From contig NC_092035.1 in NCBI RefSeq assembly GCF_042242105.1, positions 1,802,083 through 1,866,082 of the forward strand: a stretch of 64,000 nucleotides of DNA, read 5' to 3'. This document shows, piece by piece, positions 5,562 through 55,330 of the stretch (position 1 is its first letter; the number at the start of each line of letters is the position of its first letter). The translations under genes and the position numbers were made by a program. Origin of the DNA: Pempheris klunzingeri. Its lineage: Eukaryota > Chordata > Actinopteri > Acropomatiformes > Pempheridae. The notes beneath the pieces were generated by a model. That model had not been told where the DNA came from. It worked only from the letters and a program-made list of their open reading frames with translations, and searched no databases.

Positions 5562-5565
5562 GGAC

Positions 5566-6085
5566 TGTTGTGCTTTAACAAGTGGTAATGTTCAATTTGG
5601 CTATCAGAAATAATTAATAATTATCAAAGATAATTAATAATTATTAAAATAAATGAACTTCGATTAAAGTCCACCTCGATTGGGGCACCACCTCGAAAAA
5701 CGAGGAAAAGACAGCCGTTTTAATTGATTTAGTCTCATAAAAATACTAAACTATCAATCTGGAATTATGTTTTATAATTAATTTAATAATTACTACCAAA
5801 ATTACCACATTGATAGCTAGCTGAAGGATTTTTGGAGTTCTTGACAGTGTAGAGGTTGGCAGTGTCCACAATTGTACAACATTAACGGAGACAGCAAGTA
5901 TTAAAACATTTATTAAAACAGAGCAAAATTCAGGGACATCATTTGTTATGCATTAAGGACTTGTACTTTGGTTGTAAGTACGGCTGAAGCAGAGTAGGTG
6001 TTAAAGACATCTGCTGTTGCAGAAACAAAATCAATCAAACAATCTAACTAAATCTCTATGACTAAACTAAAATAATATGAGTGTA

Positions 6086-6120
<35 letters not shown>

Positions 6121-7114
6121 TAAGGCTGAGGAATGTGAGATGGGTCCCACAAAGGTGGGGGAGAGAGACCAAATGGTGATGGCCAGACCCCCTGGGGTGT
6201 GGGTCAGAGGCAGACAAAGGAAAGCTAAGTGCTGTTAGCTTAGCCTTGTCCCTCAGTGGCCTGTAGCAGACTGTGTGTGTGAGAGAGATAAAGGTGCAGG
6301 TTAAGACAGGATGGTTAGTTTGTAGGCTAACATCAACTAAACTTAATGGATGCACAGTAATCTGCAACACATCACAATAATCAAACTCACTGAACATTAA
6401 AACAAGTCAATACATTAACAAGGGTAAACCATGTATGCAGTAATGCTATGCTAATTATGCCCAGTTAGAGTTTGTTACCAGTCCTTAAAGGGGAGAAGAA
6501 GTGTCCTTGAGGATGCTGCTTTCTCAGCTTGTTGCTGGAGGAAAGGTGTGGTTCGTGTCCGTGCTGTGGTTGCAGGCTGGAGGAATCCGGTCGCTCCTTT
6601 GTTCCTGTTAGTTAGCAGCTCTGTGCTAACTTGCTGGTGTGCTCTTGTTGTTGGTTATCAGCTGGCAGACTCTGGGTCGTGCCTGCTGGCGCTGATCTGC
6701 TTACTTCAGGCAGGACCTTGTGTCGCTACCATGAAGGAGGTGGCTGCTCTGGACAGACCACACTGAGGCAGAGCTTAGCTGAGTTGAGCTGGTCTCTCCT
6801 CTGCAGGAGGAGAGGGAGCAGGAAAGACCTGGTCTCTCCACTTCAGGAGAGACGATGAGAAAGAGCTGGTCTCTCCACTTCAGGAGAGACGATGAGAAAG
6901 AGAGAGTTCAGTGGGGGTGAACTGGTTTTGTGGGCCTGTGGTCGTAAAATCATGTGTCCCCTCCGGCCAATGGTGACAGTGGAGCTGGGCGCGGGGGTGA
7001 TTTCACACCTATCTGTGAAACTGGGCATTGGGGAAAGGAGCCCAGTAGTTTTACACAGACAAAGAAACATGCGGTCTTCACCATGCGCTGTTCACTGGAT
7101 AGTGAAGCCCAACA
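5566..7114 (-). repeat. 3' LTR of the retrotransposon
   Basis: This 1549-bp repeat starts TGTTG and ends CAACA on the plus strand. It matches the other LTR base for base as far as I can read, except for a shorter (GT)n at about 6089-6119. It contains two tandem 37-bp units (6829-6902), each carrying the hairpin TCTCTCC-acttca-GGAGAGA. Short open frames inside it are duplicated in the other LTR and show no domain. Confidence 0.95.
6829..6902. repeat. Two 37-bp hairpin-bearing tandem repeats in the LTR
   Basis: Two consecutive copies of a 37-bp unit. Each contains the perfect inverted repeat TCTCTCC/GGAGAGA around a 6-nt loop. A degenerate third partial copy lies just upstream near 6789. The same array is present in the other LTR at about 11639-11712. 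Confidence 0.85.
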
Positions 7115-7125
7115 TCCCCCCTGCC
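7115..7125 (-). other. Polypurine tract next to the 3' LTR
   Basis: On the minus strand the sequence GGCAGGGGGGA directly abuts the TGTTG start of the 3' LTR. This is the expected place and composition of the plus-strand primer of LTR retroelements. Confidence 0.8.
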
Positions 7126-7666
7126 ATCAGGATGTCACCTGATGTGGGATGCTGATGGGATAATTGTGCATGTTTCGGCCATTGTTCATTTTTGTCAGTC
7201 CAGGTGAAACAAGTTGGTAACTACTGGGCAGTTTGTTATCCAACTGGGCATATGCTGAATCTATCTTGGCTAAGCTAGAACAGACATACGTTACAAAACA
7301 GTTCTTTATACACAACAATGACATACTGCATCCTAATAACCTGTGTTTCTCAGTTGTTAGTGAGGGTTAGTGGGAACAGGAAATGTCAGTGTGTTATGTA
7401 GCAGAGATAGAGGCACCTAAAATGACAAAGTCATAACAGTGTGTCCTAAGTGTGTTTTGTATGATCTTACTGACAAAATATGAAGTTGGTCCAAGTGTAC
7501 TTGGAAGTTGAGCAGTGGTGTTGAATCCAATCAGAATTTAGGCTTTCAGTAATGTTTGTTTTATCACTGAGTGCTCAAATGAGTTTGTTGCTGTTGCTAA
7601 CAAATTCGAATTTGCCTAAATAACTGTAGTGAAGGTGAGATGCAAGATTGGGTGTCTGTCATCCGG
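7126..7666 (-). other. 3' untranslated part of the LTR element
   Basis: The 540 bases between the Gag stop codon and the polypurine tract. This is where pol would be expected in a full-length relative. It is A/T-rich and contains stops in all frames, with no recognisable pol motif. The pol region is absent, not merely frameshifted. Confidence 0.6.
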
Positions 7667-9493
7667 TCAGTGCTGCCATGACCAACAAGAGTGCGCTCTA
7701 GAGCTCTTATTCTTTCTTGGCCCAGGGCTGTAACGCTCCTGGTAGCCAGAGGGAGAGAGACATTCAGAGTCACTGTCAGTGTCTGGAAGATTATTACCAT
7801 GTTCTGAGCTGCAGTCAGAGATGCTGTAGTCATCATCTGACCCGTACACTACCTGGTCATTGTTCCTTGCCTGGATTTCTGCATATGGCAGTCTCCTGCT
7901 CCTGTGCTTGGAGTGTCTATCCCTGGGCAGTGGACGGACCTGGCGGTTACGCTCAGTGTCCCTATGTGGTCTTTTGTCACCCCCCTTTCGTCTGTTGTGA
8001 GGGTGAACTTTTGGGGCAGCTGACCTGTCTGACACCTTGGTGTGTGAGCTGGGTGGCTCACTTGTCCCCCCCCTTGCTTTGGAAGAGACAATAGTTTCCC
8101 AGACTACCTGTGTCATCTTCCGGATCTCCTGCAATGAGGGGTCACCTTCCTGTGTCCTGAGTACAACGTGAGTACGCACACATGGGTGGAGGTTCCTCAA
8201 GAATAAAGCTTTGAAGGTGGAGCTTTCTTCTAAGCCTGGTGCATTCTTTCCCTGGAAATATGCGTGTCTCAAACGTTTGTAGTACTCTTTCGGATGCTCA
8301 CGACGGGCATGCTTAATTTGTAGGGCTGCAACTATTGCTGTGGTGTCGTCAGTAGCACAGGAAAATTCTTCTGTCAGTGCTTGACGTAGCAATTTATACT
8401 CATTTCTGACACTGGGAGGTCGTGACTGTATAAACTTGTGGACCGCTTTAGAGCTGGTTTTCCACACAAGTCTAACTTTCTCCCTTTCAGTTGCATGGGG
8501 TAAGTCAATTAGGTTGTAGTCTAGCTCCCTGAAATAGTCCTCAACTTGGTGATCACAGTTTTCTGGATCAAACCTATCAATGCTTCTAGCTAGAAGCTCA
8601 AGCTCTTCAAGGCGGGGACCCTGTGAAGGCGAGACTAAGCTAGTGTCATTGATATGTAAATCATGCCCTACACTTCTCTGTGGTGGAAGAACAGGGGCTG
8701 AACAGCGGCCACTCTGACGGTGATGCAGAGAGGAGGCTGAGCAGTCCTGGACTGTTCTAGTCCCATCTTTGGAGGGACAAGCATGGAGAAATGTGTCGTG
8801 CAATGATGTGAATGAGGGACTTGGGACGGAATATCTTCTAGAAGATATACTAGACAACTCCTCTTTGTCTGTTTCAGAGGAATGGGAAGTCAGGTGGCTT
8901 TGAGCTCGGTCTCTCAGCGGAGGCTGAGGAGCTGACTTCATTCCCAAGAACTTGTGTTCAGGTGGGAATAGTTCATGTCCTCTGTTGGGGGAAAAACTGA
9001 ACCTGTCACTGATAGAAGAGTGTGAATCGGAGTAACCGGAATCACACTGGCTGATCGACTCTGGTCGGGCCAAATGTTCTGACTTCAGTCTATACATTTC
9101 TTCCTTCTGCGAACAGAGATCTAACTCTGCTGTGTGCAGGTCTTCTAAGTAGCGCAGGGCTTTCTTATTAGCCATCTGAACCTCATGGAAGAGGCTAGCA
9201 TTTTGCGCTCTCAGGATTTCTACCTCCTTCTCTATGGCTGCTCTACTCTGAAGGGCGAGGCTGGTTTGCCTGTGGAAAGTCAAGAGCAAGCATTTTAACA
9301 AGGAGCCCTTGGATGCAGTCTGTGCATCACACCTGTTGTTTAGTAGGGAGTCTATCTCTTCTGTACACTCACTGAAATTCAATTTGTTGATGAATTCGGG
9401 GTAGCCAGGCTTTAGGCTCTGTGCTAGGAAAGAAATAAACTGCTCTACACAGGGGTTCTCCATTGTTGCCTGAAAAGGGGTGAGGTAAAACAA
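7667..9493 (-). CDS. Gag-like capsid protein of the LTR retrotransposon
   Basis: An uninterrupted 608-codon frame inside the LTR element. Initiation could be at residue 1 or at a second Met at residue 11 (MENPCVEQF), which looks the more natural start. The N-terminal part contains a predicted coiled coil at about residues 60-130. A Ser-rich region follows. A retrotransposon Gag-type helical domain lies at about 300-460 and begins around DRFDPENCDHQVEDYFREL. The tail is first strongly basic (Arg/His-rich, a possible RNA-binding segment) and then acidic (YGSDDDYSISDCSSEHG). No CCHC zinc knuckle is visible, nor any protease or reverse transcriptase motif. Likely role by family: self-assembling capsid and RNA packaging. 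The open frame and near-identical LTRs suggest recent activity with polymerase supplied by another element. The superfamily (Ty3-like is most likely) is not settled. Confidence 0.82.
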   Translation of the reverse strand: MFYLTPFQATMENPCVEQFISFLAQSLKPGYPEFINKLNFSECTEEIDSLLNNRCDAQTASKGSLLKCLLLTFHRQTSLALQSRAAIEKEVEILRAQNASLFHEVQMANKKALRYLEDLHTAELDLCSQKEEMYRLKSEHLARPESISQCDSGYSDSHSSISDRFSFSPNRGHELFPPEHKFLGMKSAPQPPLRDRAQSHLTSHSSETDKEELSSISSRRYSVPSPSFTSLHDTFLHACPSKDGTRTVQDCSASSLHHRQSGRCSAPVLPPQRSVGHDLHINDTSLVSPSQGPRLEELELLARSIDRFDPENCDHQVEDYFRELDYNLIDLPHATEREKVRLVWKTSSKAVHKFIQSRPPSVRNEYKLLRQALTEEFSCATDDTTAIVAALQIKHARREHPKEYYKRLRHAYFQGKNAPGLEESSTFKALFLRNLHPCVRTHVVLRTQEGDPSLQEIRKMTQVVWETIVSSKARGGTSEPPSSHTKVSDRSAAPKVHPHNRRKGGDKRPHRDTERNRQVRPLPRDRHSKHRSRRLPYAEIQARNNDQVVYGSDDDYSISDCSSEHGNNLPDTDSDSECLSPSGYQERYSPGPRKNKSSRAHSCWSWQH

Positions 9494-10356
9494 GTTAAAA
9501 TATAAAATTTCAAGTGGTTGGCTGTGGTGTTGCTGTGGCAGACACCTTGAAGTGTAGCTTGGGGAATACTACTAGCCTAACACTGTGGTGGCCTACACTA
9601 GAAGGTAGCTGTACACTATCTAGTGGAACTGGTGGGAATAGCAAACTGAGGCCAATTAAGGTAAATGCAGATTTACACAAAATAAGTTTGCTCACCAAAA
9701 TTATGACTCTCTAGCTGAAATGCACGGCAGTAACAGTCAGGAATGTCTCTTTAAGTTACTCAAGCTGGAACACGTGGCAGTTGCAGCTAGGTATTAACTT
9801 CACAGGGCTGATAGCACACTGTGGCTCTCTCTCAGGCTCTATTTCTTATTCAGGCTGAAATGCACGGCAGTAACAGCCAGGTTCAAGCTCTACGTTCACA
9901 GGGCCGGTGGCACGCTGTGTCTTAACAAACAGGAAGCACTTTAGTTAACAGCGAATGGACAGATTGCATTGAATGTGTGACATTCAAATGCCGAACCAAA
10001 TTCTTCCTACAGGGTAGGTTTACCTGAAAGGTTAGCAGCAGTAGCAAGCTCTAAATGTAACACTATGGGGCTTTCAATGTTTGCTTTCAAACATAGGCAC
10101 CAGTGTTGGCATTAGCTTTAGCCTTAATTCACAGTACACTACACTAACTCTTCAAATTGCTTTTAGCTTAATTTAGTTAGATTGATTTTCACCACAATGC
10201 ACTTGAAAGTACAGCTGGAAGTACTTCTGTGACTGACTAGTGGTTAAAAATGATAATTTTGCTCGTTTTAAAGTTTTTCCAAAAATTTTGGTTTTGACCA
10301 AAATTCTGCTGAAAATTAATATTGTACAAATATGAACAATTGCCAACAGTACTCTG
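9494..10356 (-). other. Leader of the LTR element with three imperfect repeats
   Basis: The 860-base untranslated leader lies between the primer site and the Gag frame. A motif close to TGAAATGCACGGCAGTAACA occurs at about 9717 and 9857, with a diverged third copy near 9765. The second and third members also share a following block ending in GCACRCTGTG. The position suits a packaging or dimerisation signal, but that is inference. No open frame of note. Confidence 0.55.
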
Positions 10357-10373
10357 CCTCACACGGGGCACCA
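10357..10373 (-). other. tRNA primer-binding site (elongator tRNA-Met type)
   Basis: Two bases inside the 5' LTR, the minus strand reads TGGTGCCCCGTGTGAGG. This is the exact complement of the 3' end of vertebrate elongator tRNA-Met as I remember it (CCTCACACGGGGCACCA), a 17-base match including the CCA tail. Its position directly next to the LTR and its start with TGG are what reverse-transcription priming requires. Confidence 0.85.
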
Positions 10374-10375
10374 TT

Positions 10376-10895
10376 TGTTGTGCTTTAACAAGTGGTAATG
10401 TTCAATTTGGCTATCAGAAATAATTAATAATTATCAAAGATAATTAATAATTATTAAAATAAATGAACTTCGATTAAAGTCCACCTCGATTGGGGCACCA
10501 CCTCGAAAAACGAGGAAAAGACAGCCGTTTTAATTGATTTAGTCTCATAAAAATACTAAACTATCAATCTGGAATTATGTTTTATAATTAATTTAATAAT
10601 TACTACCAAAATTACCACATTGATAGCTAGCTGAAGGATTTTTGGAGTTCTTGACAGTGTAGAGGTTGGCAGTGTCCACAATTGTACAACATTAACGGAG
10701 ACAGCAAGTATTAAAACATTTATTAAAACAGAGCAAAATTCAGGGACATCATTTGTTATGCATTAAGGACTTGTACTTTGGTTGTAAGTACGGCTGAAGC
10801 AGAGTAGGTGTTAAAGACATCTGCTGTTGCAGAAACAAAATCAATCAAACAATCTAACTAAATCTCTATGACTAAACTAAAATAATATGAGTGTA

Positions 10896-10940
<45 letters not shown>

Positions 10941-11934
10941 TAAGGCTGAGGAATGTGAGATGGGTCCCACAAAGGTGGGGGAGAGAGACCAAATGGTGAT
11001 GGCCAGACCCCCTGGGGTGTGGGTCAGAGGCAGACAAAGGAAAGCTAAGTGCTGTTAGCTTAGCCTTGTCCCTCAGTGGCCTGTAGCAGACTGTGTGTGT
11101 GAGAGAGATAAAGGTGCAGGTTAAGACAGGATGGTTAGTTTGTAGGCTAACATCAACTAAACTTAATGGATGCACAGTAATCTGCAACACATCACAATAA
11201 TCAAACTCACTGAACATTAAAACAAGTCAATACATTAACAAGGGTAAACCATGTATGCAGTAATGCTATGCTAATTATGCCCAGTTAGAGTTTGTTACCA
11301 GTCCTTAAAGGGGAGAAGAAGTGTCCTTGAGGATGCTGCTTTCTCAGCTTGTTGCTGGAGGAAAGGTGTGGTTCGTGTCCGTGCTGTGGTTGCAGGCTGG
11401 AGGAATCCGGTCGCTCCTTTGTTCCTGTTAGTTAGCAGCTCTGTGCTAACTTGCTGGTGTGCTCTTGTTGTTGGTTATCAGCTGGCAGACTCTGGGTCGT
11501 GCCTGCTGGCGCTGATCTGCTTACTTCAGGCAGGACCTTGTGTCGCTACCATGAAGGAGGTGGCTGCTCTGGACAGACCACACTGAGGCAGAGCTTAGCT
11601 GAGTTGAGCTGGTCTCTCCTCTGCAGGAGGAGAGGGAGCAGGAAAGACCTGGTCTCTCCACTTCAGGAGAGACGATGAGAAAGAGCTGGTCTCTCCACTT
11701 CAGGAGAGACGATGAGAAAGAGAGAGTTCAGTGGGGGTGAACTGGTTTTGTGGGCCTGTGGTCGTAAAATCATGTGTCCCCTCCGGCCAATGGTGACAGT
11801 GGAGCTGGGCGCGGGGGTGATTTCACACCTATCTGTGAAACTGGGCATTGGGGAAAGGAGCCCAGTAGTTTTACACAGACAAAGAAACATGCGGTCTTCA
11901 CCATGCGCTGTTCACTGGATAGTGAAGCCCAACA
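10376..11934 (-). repeat. 5' LTR of the retrotransposon
   Basis: This 1559-bp repeat is the upstream LTR because the element reads on the minus strand. It is longer than its partner only by five extra GT units (about 10899-10939). It should hold the element's promoter. An A/T-rich stretch near 10571-10590 reads TTATAAAAC on the minus strand and could be a TATA box, but this is only a guess. Confidence 0.94.
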
Positions 11935-11969
11935 GGACTGTGTTCCCCTTTTCCTCGTCTTAAAGGCTC

Positions 11970-14400: not shown

Positions 14401-14951
14401 TTACGGAGCTTTGGGGAAATTGGGGCTTTTATTTTTTAGGCGCCATCGCTTAACCGGAAGTCCTGTTTTACATTTCACTGCACGAGCTTGGCGCAGCTTT
14501 TAGGGGCTGATCCACGCGTCACACACACCAACATTTGTGTGCGTGTGTTCCCACATGAAGGCGGCCGCCACGCACTTGGAGACGCAGACAGATGCGGAGA
14601 CATGATGTGACATTCGGCCACGCGTAATTTGCGCATTTGGAGAGCGGTGCGCACGGCCAAGGCACCGCCGTGTGTGTGATGATTTGGCTGTTTGTGGACG
14701 CCTGATGCCGTTGGAGTGAGTCCAGGGATGCTGCGGCTTGTCTGGCTGCCGGAGTGCCTCCGCGCAACGAGGGGCTGCGCCCTCCACATCTGCTGAGGCG
14801 CGGATCGGTCTGTGCGCGTTTTCTCACCTTATGATTTAAGTCCCTCCGCTATGGAGCTCTCCCGGGACCTTTAAGCGTCCCCTGCACTGATATTGCTCGC
14901 TGCTGGGACTGTGGAAGTGCATACTGTCCCTCCTCCTTCCCAGGCTGCAAG
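14401..14951 (+). promoter_or_regulatory. CpG-rich promoter and 5' untranslated region of the ARL4C-type gene
   Basis: Base composition changes sharply from A/T-rich to CpG-rich here, directly upstream of the single-exon GTPase gene. ACCGGAAGT at 14453-14461 is a perfect ETS/GABP-type site. No clear TATA box is visible. The transcription start is unknown, and an upstream non-coding exon cannot be excluded. Confidence 0.55.
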
Positions 14952-15536
14952 ATGGGGAATAGTTTCTCCAATTTGGGTGCCTTCCAGTCCCTGCACATAG
15001 TCATGCTCGGCTTGGACTCTGCGGGCAAAACCACCGTGCTGTACCGGCTGAAATTTAACGAGTTCGTCAACACGGTGCCAACCATCGGTTTCAACACGGA
15101 GAGGATCCGGCTGGGCGGCGCGGGGGCCTCCAGGGGCATCAGCTGCCACTTCTGGGACGTCGGGGGCCAGGAGAAGCTGCGGCCCCTGTGGAAGCCCTAC
15201 AGCCGCTGCACGGACGGCATCGTGTACGTGGTGGACTCCGTGGACGCCGAGAGGCTGGAGGAGGCCCGGACCGAGCTGCACAAGATCACCCGGTTCTCGG
15301 AGAACCAGGGGACCCCGCTGCTGGTCATCGCCAACAAGCAGGACCTGCCCCGGGCGCTGGATGTCGGGGAGATAGAGAGGCAGCTGGCCCTGGCTGAGCT
15401 GAGCCCCTCCACCCCGTACCACGTCCAGCCGGCCTGCGCCATCATAGGAGAGGGGCTGGATGAGGGCATGGACAAACTGTATGAGATGATAGTGAAGAGG
15501 AGGAAGTCACTGAAGCAGAAGAAGAAGAGGCAGTGA
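14952..15536 (+). CDS. arl4c: ADP-ribosylation factor-like small GTPase, ARL4C type
   Basis: One uninterrupted 194-residue exon, as in mammalian ARL4 genes. The N-terminus MGNSFSN gives Gly2 for myristoylation. The GTPase motifs are in order: P-loop GLDSAGKTT (residues 20-28), switch I PTIGFNTE (43-50), switch II WDVGGQE (68-74) and NKQD (128-131). The C-terminus is a lysine/arginine tail ([13 protein letters not shown]) that serves as membrane and nuclear targeting signal in this family. [15 protein letters not shown] and [22 protein letters not shown] match ARL4C better than ARL4A, whose N-terminus is longer. The family acts at the plasma membrane in actin remodelling and vesicle traffic by recruiting cytohesins and filamin. 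Compared with the human protein, the loop at 55-61 is Gly/Ala-rich and one extra Gln ends the chain. Start chosen for the intact myristoylation signal. Codon use is very GC-rich. Confidence 0.95.
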
Positions 15537-53537: not shown

Positions 53538-54468
53538 CGCTCGGCGTCACACAGCAGCTGAGTGCTTCCCTCCGTCTCTGAGCTGTGGAGGCAAACAAAC
53601 GGTCATTTTTACCACAAACACGGTTCAGTGAAGGCACCATGACATGATCCTTTTGCTGATCTCAGTTCAGTGAGCTGTTGGTTTTTATAGCATCTTTACA
53701 TGAAATCTGTTAAGTTTGGCCATAATTTATTGTTTGTTGACTTCTAGAAGCCCAACTTTGTTAAATGAGCCTAAAAATCACATGTAATTGAAGAAAAGGG
53801 CTTTTAATTCATCTGAACACTCACGATATTCCACCTCATCCCACTACCTACTTTAGATTTTTATATTTTCTCTCTTTAAGAGATGAATATTGGTGAAAAT
53901 ACACTCCAACATAGTGACATAATGCTGCTGATCTAATTATAAAGTGTGAGTGTCAAACCACTGACTGTAAACACCTCTGATCCACCACTGCACCTGGATT
54001 TAACATCAAAAATCATCTCTATTGTTGAATATTAACAATATCCACACGTATCCATCACTAAAGATGCTTTTAATCCATTTCAGAACCTGTTTTTTTTTCA
54101 CCTACAGCTCCCAAATCTCAAATTCTAATCCCTTTCTATCTGTTTAGAATAAACTAACCTCTAAATCCTCGTTGGATAAAACCACCTGCTCCCCTTTAAC
54201 AAACCACATCAAAGTGCCCAAACAGCTTTCAGTCTTATTTTAAGCCCTCAAAGGCAGCAGCGCGTGTTTTCTTTGTGTGTCGTCAATCACTGCAGAAACA
54301 GGTGTTTCCTCTGGTCAGCACACAAAGTGTCTGAGCCGTGGAGCTCAGCACCTGAACGCACCTCCACTGTGGGAGGATGCTGCGTGCTCAGGTGGCCTCA
54401 CCTGCTCTACCTGTGTGACCCAGAGAGAAGCAGCGCTCCTGATCTGTGCGTGTCGTCCTGCAACTCAC
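50961..54468. other. Region between bzw1 and the bHLH first exon
   Basis: The second exon of the minus-strand bHLH gene should lie here, or further left, but I could not find a frame ending in the expected basic tail. Otherwise the region holds A/T-rich DNA and a (CTGT)n microsatellite. No other gene is supported. Confidence 0.5.
53491..53536. repeat. (CTGT)n microsatellite
   Basis: Eleven to twelve tetranucleotide CTGT (GTCT) units. The Cys-Leu-Ser-Val and Gln-Thr-Asp-Arg repeats in open frames here are artefacts. Confidence 0.97.
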
Positions 54469-55041
54469 CAGCTTCCTCTGGTTGCTGAGGCAGAAAGTGC
54501 AGATGGGCCGCAGGGAGGCCGCGCTGAGCGCCGCGGGGCCGTGCAGGATGCTCTGGTAGCGGAGGCAGGGCTGTCCGTCCCGGCAGTCCTCCCCCAGCAG
54601 CAGCACGTTGGCCAGGTGGGAGATGTAGCTGGAGGCCAGGCGCAGCGTCTCTATCTTGGAGAGCTTCCTGTCGGCGGGCTCGGTGGGGATGAGCGTGCGG
54701 AGCGCCGTGAAGGCCGTGTTCACGCTGTGCGTCCGGTCCCGCTCCCGCGCGTTGGCCGCTTGTCTCTGCTGGCTGACTCCGGGGAGCCGCGCGTCTCCGC
54801 CGCCTCCGCTGCTGCTGCGCCTCCGCCGTCTCCTCCGCCTCGGCGCGTCGGCCCGGGAGCCGCGTCCGGCCGCCGCCCCCTCCCCGCCCTCCTCCTCTTC
54901 CTCCCCCGGGTCCCTGCGGGGGCTGCAGCCGCCGGTGGACTTCCCGTCGGAGCTGTCGCTGCCGCTGTCCAGCTCGTCCAGGTCGGACGCGAAGCCGTCG
55001 GGCTGCGCCGTGCGCTCGCTGCGGTGCGCGGTGGACTTCAT
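54469..55041 (-). CDS. TCF15/scleraxis-family bHLH transcription factor, first coding exon
   Basis: A 191-residue exon in CpG-rich sequence. Order: acidic-serine N-terminus ([16 protein letters not shown], residues 20-35), glutamate run, arginine run (68-75), and bHLH at about 92-145 ([20 protein letters not shown] with the E-box-contacting ERDR). The helix-loop-helix [19 protein letters not shown] follows, then the signature [11 protein letters not shown] found only in TCF15 (paraxis) and SCX. A donor (CTG|GTGAGT) follows Leu191, where SCX and TCF15 also splice. The last 10-25 residues, expected in exon 2, were not located. [13 protein letters not shown] and LANVLLLG favour paraxis. [22 protein letters not shown] favours scleraxis. 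Function by family: heterodimer with E proteins in somite, tendon or mesoderm development. The start at 55041 gives an N-terminus similar to the SEDE.R.SDSS region of both relatives but with different first residues. Confidence 0.85.
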
Positions 55042-55330
55042 CCTGGCTCTGCTCTGCTCTGCTCTGGTCTGACTGGAGCTGCTGGGGCCGTGAGGGCGGG
55101 CGGCGGCTGCACATCACTTTATCCTGAGGGTGAAAATAGCACCGGGGGGTCGAGCAGCTGCCGCCGATCCGGTGACCGAGGGGGTTTGCGCCGTCCGGCC
55201 CCCCGGCGGTTCGGCATACCATTTCTAATGAATGACGGCTGCTTTCTGGGTCGCCAGCCCGCCGCGGAGAAGGGAAGACAGGTGGAGCGTAAAGAGAGGG
55301 GAGGGGGCACCTGTTGTGGTCTGGAGGACA
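55042..55330 (-). promoter_or_regulatory. CpG-rich upstream region of the bHLH gene
   Basis: GC-rich sequence upstream of the start codon. GGATAAAGTGATG on the minus strand near 55111-55123 is a weak TATA-like element. Open frames here on both strands are composition artefacts. Confidence 0.4.

Follow-up and report, generated by a model that had tools for sequence, protein, structure and literature searches.

In plants, TR-GAG elements are long terminal repeat (LTR) elements that carry gag alone and are thought to be mobilized in trans, and in Drosophila, HeT-A encodes only Gag and obtains its pol from elsewhere. According to the sections of the zebrafish study drawn on here, BHIKHARI-1 comprises 196 insertions, 25 of them proviral and 8 with an intact Gag (617 amino acids (aa) in the consensus), and has no pol; BHIKHARI-2 (crestin) is likewise gag-only, and a role in embryos is reported for both Gags (PMC10996621). 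Intact BHIKHARI-1 Gags are counted as 8/25 in the text of that paper and as 7/22 in a figure legend (PMC10996621). Here we analyze a retroelement at positions 5566-11934, minus strand, of a 64,000-nucleotide window of the fish Pempheris klunzingeri (C24:1802083-1866082 in a 646-Mb assembly, the single assembly to which our genome-wide searches were confined). The initial annotation of the window had treated it as a lone element, but we found a family of about 52 copies in the same genome, hereafter family A. We consider it likely that family A is young and probably still active, belongs to the lokiretrovirus lineage, has neither pol nor env, keeps its Gag, and borrows its enzymes in trans. By description, family A resembles the TR-GAG elements of plants in being an LTR element with gag alone, and differs from HeT-A, which is a non-LTR, telomeric element. 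In the initial annotation, gag-only elements were said to be described mainly in plants, with a recent animal case being of interest; on that point the zebrafish BHIKHARI families take precedence (PMC10996621).

The basic anatomy given in the initial annotation was re-found in the sequence, namely LTRs bounded by TGTTG...CAACA, a 4-bp target-site duplication (TSD), a primer-binding site (PBS), and a polypurine tract (PPT). The 5' LTR (1559 bp; 10376-11934) and the 3' LTR (1549 bp; 5566-7114) lie on the minus strand, as do all internal features below, and the TSD GGAC, which has no strand, stands at 5562-5565 on the left and 11935-11938 on the right. The two LTRs had been called identical; there are indeed 0 substitutions between them, but one 10-bp (GT)n indel sets them apart. 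The PBS (TGGTGCCCCGTGTGAGG; 10357-10373) lies 2 nt inward of the 5' LTR and matches what we take to be the 3' end of elongator tRNA-Met, and the PPT (AGGGGGGA; 7115-7122) adjoins the 3' LTR. Within the 3' LTR there is an AATAAA motif at 5909-5914; the R/U5 border probably falls directly past it, and the matching place is where four other copies with hybrid 5' LTRs, described below, make their switch.

There is a single long frame in the internal region (7115-10375; 3261 bp). The longest stop-free frame of this region extends over 633 codons, compared with a maximum of 227 and a mean of 117 in 500 first-order Markov simulations. A Gag frame of 608 codons had been proposed, and the open frame is real, but those codons begin at TTG; the first ATG, at 9463 (GCAACAATGG), and the stop codon at 7667-7669 delimit a gag-like open reading frame (ORF; 7667-9463) of 598 aa plus stop. 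Directly upstream of this ATG, a pyrimidine tract ending in CAG (9469-9489) may be splice-acceptor-like. A capsid-like region at 8066-8620 is the part that is conserved in three relatives discussed below, family B (49%), L066 (39%), and L067 (37%). Sequence comparison of the Gag with Pfam and PDB gave no significant match, a capsid model built from the single sequence with no alignment had a mean predicted local distance difference test score (pLDDT) of 40.6, and searches for Gag relatives in viral contigs and in bacterial and archaeal genomes returned only pattern matches, none of them confirmed.

No trace of pol was found around gag. The 5' leader (9464-10356) and the 3' untranslated tail (7123-7666) contain no long frame in a scan for stop-free frames, and their six-frame translations gave no match at E 0.1 to the relatives L066, L067, and L068; no pol remnant was detected in the tail by either approach. 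The claim that the 3.26-kb interior lacks pol is therefore upheld, and the element itself has no pol or env, the dual RNase H and the F-like Env of its relatives being absent from it.

We next define family A by a capsid-region identity to the window element of 93% or more. In a capsid-region search of the genome, every one of the 106 candidates was scored; this gave 108 matches, 52 of which fall within family A. In a DNA search of the same genome, in which 40 of 97 candidates were scored (window included), 37 of the 40 scored matches span the whole query. Copies were sampled as 20 with flanks (L009-L028), then L029, then the gag regions of 19 other DNA-search matches. The internal region measures 3242-3265 bp in L009-L028 and the window element and 3252 bp in L029, and pol is absent from all 22 of these measured regions. 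At seven further sites (L051, L056-L059, L063, and L064), where only the junction was seen, the 3' LTR junction lies at the distance expected of a gag-only copy. These data bear on the reading that a pol-bearing element suffered a single internal deletion to give the window element, whose Gag would then be open by chance or because the element is young. Deletional loss of pol probably does occur in this lineage, to judge from family B, but the measured copies are all alike in lacking pol, and Gag is under purifying selection (see below), so that we regard this reading as refuted. A unique deletion had been named beforehand as one of two refuting outcomes, and it did not occur: the other examined copies also lack pol.

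Individual copies of family A are very young. Perfect 4-bp TSDs flank 20 of 21 copies (the window element and L009-L028, with flanks read by eye), the exception being L021, and no substitution separates the two LTRs in 16 of 20 measurable pairs. The LTR comparison could use only about 1.2-1.3 kb for L020, L023, and L028; L021 has no pair, and L029 was left out. The oldest pair, in L013, has 19 substitutions in 1556 bases; without it, 4 substitutions are spread over 28,979 aligned bases in the other 19 pairs, and all 20 pairs together have 23 in 30,535. On the other hand, the 3' LTRs of 22 copies diverge from one another by a mean of 1.5% (range 0.5-2.7%). Since LTR pairs are near-identical within copies while 3' LTRs differ between copies, each copy is very young and yet the family is diverse. 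In L021, a piece of the 5' LTR is inverted next to the PBS, and the remainder could not be located in the retrieved flanking sequence. At two places (C15:8549492 with 8554371, and C9:27917346 with 27922974), family A and family B copies are neighbors at a spacing that fits tandems sharing an LTR.

The Gag frame has been maintained across the family. In 47 of the 52 copies the frame is open for 595 aa or more, with no stop inside the match; the remaining five comprise frames of 403, 498, and 565 aa, one TGA, and one TAA. By a stricter test of 41 copies (the window element, 39 other scored DNA-search matches, and L029), the gag ORF is complete in 36. Two of the exceptions have real stops (L044, TAA; L045, TGA) and L041 is three residues short, while L046 and L047 fail only because the fetched pieces end early, both being open in the capsid search. 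For comparison, about 18 neutral substitutions per copy would be expected to spare 51% of copies from stops. Pairwise Nei-Gojobori estimates over the 36 full ORFs gave a nonsynonymous divergence (dN) of 0.0123 and a synonymous divergence (dS) of 0.0579, a ratio of 0.213, with values of 0.146 in the N-terminal part, 0.386 in the linker, 0.080 in the capsid-like region, and 0.323 in the C-terminal part. Gag is thus under purifying selection and neutral evolution, the other refuting outcome named beforehand, is rejected, in agreement with the earlier proposal that it is kept intact. The nonsynonymous-to-synonymous ratio is 0.28 for variants found in single copies and 0.22 for shared variants, and the low value in single-copy variants is consistent with cis-preference.

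Why Gag is kept can be explained in two ways. We propose that the transcript of each copy would be packaged by its own Gag, and that Gag is retained since packaging may be largely cis-preferential, such that copies with a broken Gag would multiply less. An unlikely alternative, though one to be taken seriously, is that Gag is kept for host use, by "addiction" or co-option as proposed for BHIKHARI, with replication secondary. The very low dN/dS of the capsid region would suit host use, as would the reports that zebrafish Bik-1 Gag is needed for mesoderm and Bik-2 Gag for neural crest (PMC10996621, in the sections considered). However, the many dispersed, very young copies that keep LTRs, PBS, and PPT speak of selection for copying, and about 47 open copies are more than a host need would require.

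The lineage of family A is indicated by its pol-bearing relatives. Its capsid region shares 37-50% identity with family B and with two decayed pol-bearing relatives, L066 and L067. A single piece of L066 matches both RT_RNaseH (2.4e-19) and RNase_H (6.4e-14) in Pfam. Lokiretroviruses share a dual RNase H with canonical retroviruses, and their Env resembles Mononegavirales fusion proteins (PMC9040795, in the parts considered). Capsid homology ties family A to these viruses through L066, with its dual RNase H, and L067, with a weakly F-like Env, and family A differs from lokiretroviruses, as described there, in having no pol and no env (PMC9040795). By homology to these relatives, family A probably belongs to the lokiretrovirus lineage.

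Family B comprises eight copies with 49% capsid identity to family A. The PBS pattern occurs at 7/8 and the PPT/LTR junction at 8/8, and in L068, the copy fetched at length, the LTR start (TGTTGGGC) and LTR end (GCACAACA) are both as in family A. An integrase remnant persists in all eight copies, within a 218-aa frame that lies some 1.0-1.3 kb away from the capsid match. In L068 the remnant has 59% identity to the L066 integrase over 88 aa, and the frame (L068:4354-5010) follows the gag stop codon in phase, so that readthrough would be possible. Family B therefore appears to have lost pol by deletion.

If family A borrows its enzymes, then reverse transcriptase (RT), RNase H, and integrase would be supplied in trans by a pol-bearing relative with matching PBS, PPT, and LTR ends, probably a provirus on chromosome 9 or one like it. 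This provirus (C9:12925606-12935310), seen in pieces (L052, L053, L069, L070, and L072-L075), has stop-free frames for gag (625 aa) and pol (1739 aa), and its RT and RNase H pieces are open. Its PBS lies at C9:12935287 and its PPT/LTR junction at C9:12925606, and it has in common with family A the PBS, the PPT, the LTR start, and the last LTR bases CAACA. Over 895 aligned bases, its LTR parts differ by one gap, with 0 mismatches. We also observed that the provirus is very young and carries an open piece that is Env-like by eye. Judged from these shared sites, it is the best candidate helper in the assembly and may be what mobilizes family A. Capsid and integrase matches about 5 kb apart also occur near C9:8354241 and C6:3958058, the former together with a PPT junction. 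A PBS site at C18:1392998 (L071) was rejected as a relative: no capsid match is nearby, and the fetched pieces match relatives at the PBS only. Its LTR end is similar, and the sequence beyond the PBS is different.

It is possible, although we lean against it, that the helper is instead a rare autonomous version of family A with the same LTR, missing from this assembly. One genome was searched, and the same suggestion is made for BHIKHARI in the sections considered (PMC10996621). However, the 50 exact PBS sites in the genome are accounted for by 41 family A copies, 7 family B copies, the chromosome 9 provirus, and one other site (an exact pattern overlooks copies with an altered PBS). Among 18 integrase matches carried forward from 147 scored (of 458 candidates), only two are less than 9 kb from a family A capsid, and both sit 6-7 kb upstream of it. 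The PPT/LTR junction (GGGGGATGTTGGGC) occurs at 61 genome sites, compared with 1 for a reversed control pattern; 4 of the 61 (C1:20368773, C2:15451412, C7:12173364, and C18:735823) were left unassigned to any family. A further possible source of pol is the more distant LTR elements, of which this genome has many, often with open frames: most of the scored integrase matches have roughly 26-41% identity, many of them within long open frames. We consider this source very unlikely, since the shared PBS, PPT, and LTR start, as judged from these PBS and PPT/LTR pattern sites, favor lokiretroviral relatives.

Several observations weigh against family A being a lokiretroviral family served by the chromosome 9 provirus. 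The evidence for the family comes from genomic DNA, and the internal region was measured in 22 of the 52 copies. The dN/dS estimate comes from full ORFs only, which lowers it. As for lineage, the integrase pieces of L066 and L067 reach at best 5.2e-05 and 1.8e-06, under the Pfam cut-offs, and the L067 Env piece is weakly Fusion_gly-like (E 0.0095, also under the cut-off). A dual RNase H is common to canonical retroviruses and hence not specific to lokiretroviruses, so the assignment rests mostly on the weak Env match and the likeness to BHIKHARI. As for the helper, the initial annotation had called for a pol-bearing partner with the same LTR; an LTR-flanked relative with the same PBS and PPT plus pol does exist, but its LTR is another, the fetched LTR parts having no detectable shared DNA with the family A LTR. 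The provirus LTR ends in CCCAACA and that of family A in CACAACA, the PBS spacer is TT in the provirus and AA in family A, and the capsids are 47% identical. The lack of shared LTR DNA makes the helper link plausible rather than proven, and the LTR, spacer, and capsid differences together leave room for another or a polymorphic helper.

The copies have recombined extensively. Among 22 copies, 4290 of 7260 informative-site pairs fail the four-gamete test, and a clonal tree of the internal regions was accordingly set aside as having little meaning. The squared correlation between sites (r2) is 0.22 within 25 bp and falls to about 0.05, the unlinked level, past 100 bp, a decay matched by 0 of 1000 position shuffles and also seen in the LTR (30 sites) and, on 14 sites with 3 close pairs, in transversions alone. 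Because the LTR pairs inside each copy stay near-identical, exchange would have occurred mostly before integration, through template switching by RT; for the same reason, as pairs are near-identical while copies differ, post-integration gene conversion was judged unlikely as the main source. RNAs of different copies may thus be co-packaged, with template switching between them reshuffling the family.

Four copies carry hybrid LTRs. In L020, L023, L028, and L029, the 5' LTR is family-like until just past the AATAAA and then continues into a different 19-nt tail before the PBS, while the 3' LTR keeps its usual end of about 330 nt; TSDs are perfect at L020, L023, and L028. Canonical reverse transcription gives both LTRs the same U5. 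A hybrid could arise if first-strand synthesis begins on one RNA and continues past the PBS onto the 5' end of another, with pairing through R at the second transfer. The alternative 19-nt U5 joined to the PBS (the form searched for, rather than U5 alone) occurs at five genome sites, the fifth being C18:13019550, on the 5' side of another family A copy. This U5 was considered as a mark of the pol-bearing partner and ruled out, as all five sites lie in or beside family A copies. The PBS itself occurs in two forms, with a GT insert in 9 of 21 copies and without it in 12, among which L019 has an extra change; the two forms coexist although the PBS would be expected to be recopied from the tRNA in each cycle. 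Elsewhere in the window, frames at 54388-55113 and 14835-15536 resemble what we take to be scleraxis-type basic helix-loop-helix and ARL-type GTPase genes, respectively.

Family A shares with BHIKHARI-1 and -2, as described in the sections considered, a gag-only LTR organization, a Gag of about 600 aa with a capsid, and recent dispersed copies with TSDs (PMC10996621). Gag is open in 47/52 family A copies, picked by capsid identity, compared with 8/25 BHIKHARI-1 proviruses, fractions that are not strictly comparable; unlike BHIKHARI as described, family A has, within its own genome, a relative that carries both pol and matching cis sites (PMC10996621). By organization and probable lineage, family A is probably a further member of the BHIKHARI kind, likened by description and not by Gag sequence. 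A literature search for gag-only LTR elements in fish or for pol-less endogenous retroviruses returned none, a result of little weight since BHIKHARI was found by name. Those sections of the zebrafish paper do not contain a candidate helper, another gag-only family that retains an integrase remnant, extensive recombination among copies, or hybrid 5' LTRs (PMC10996621).

Two separate gag-only families in this genome, together with zebrafish BHIKHARI, tentatively suggest that giving up pol while keeping Gag may be a recurrent and evolutionarily stable life style of fish lokiretroviruses. In this genome, about 50 freely recombining capsid genes would depend on enzymes supplied by a small number of pol-bearing proviruses, perhaps a single one, and mixed particles would give rise to hybrid LTRs. 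The enzyme source of a gag-only animal retroelement, left open for BHIKHARI in the sections considered (PMC10996621), becomes testable here within one genome. The reason for Gag conservation becomes testable too, as the candidate helper shares the PBS, PPT, and LTR start, selection on the capsid can be measured, and the copies recombine. If gag-only families do recur, selection on Gag for replication and selection for host use would become separable by comparison.

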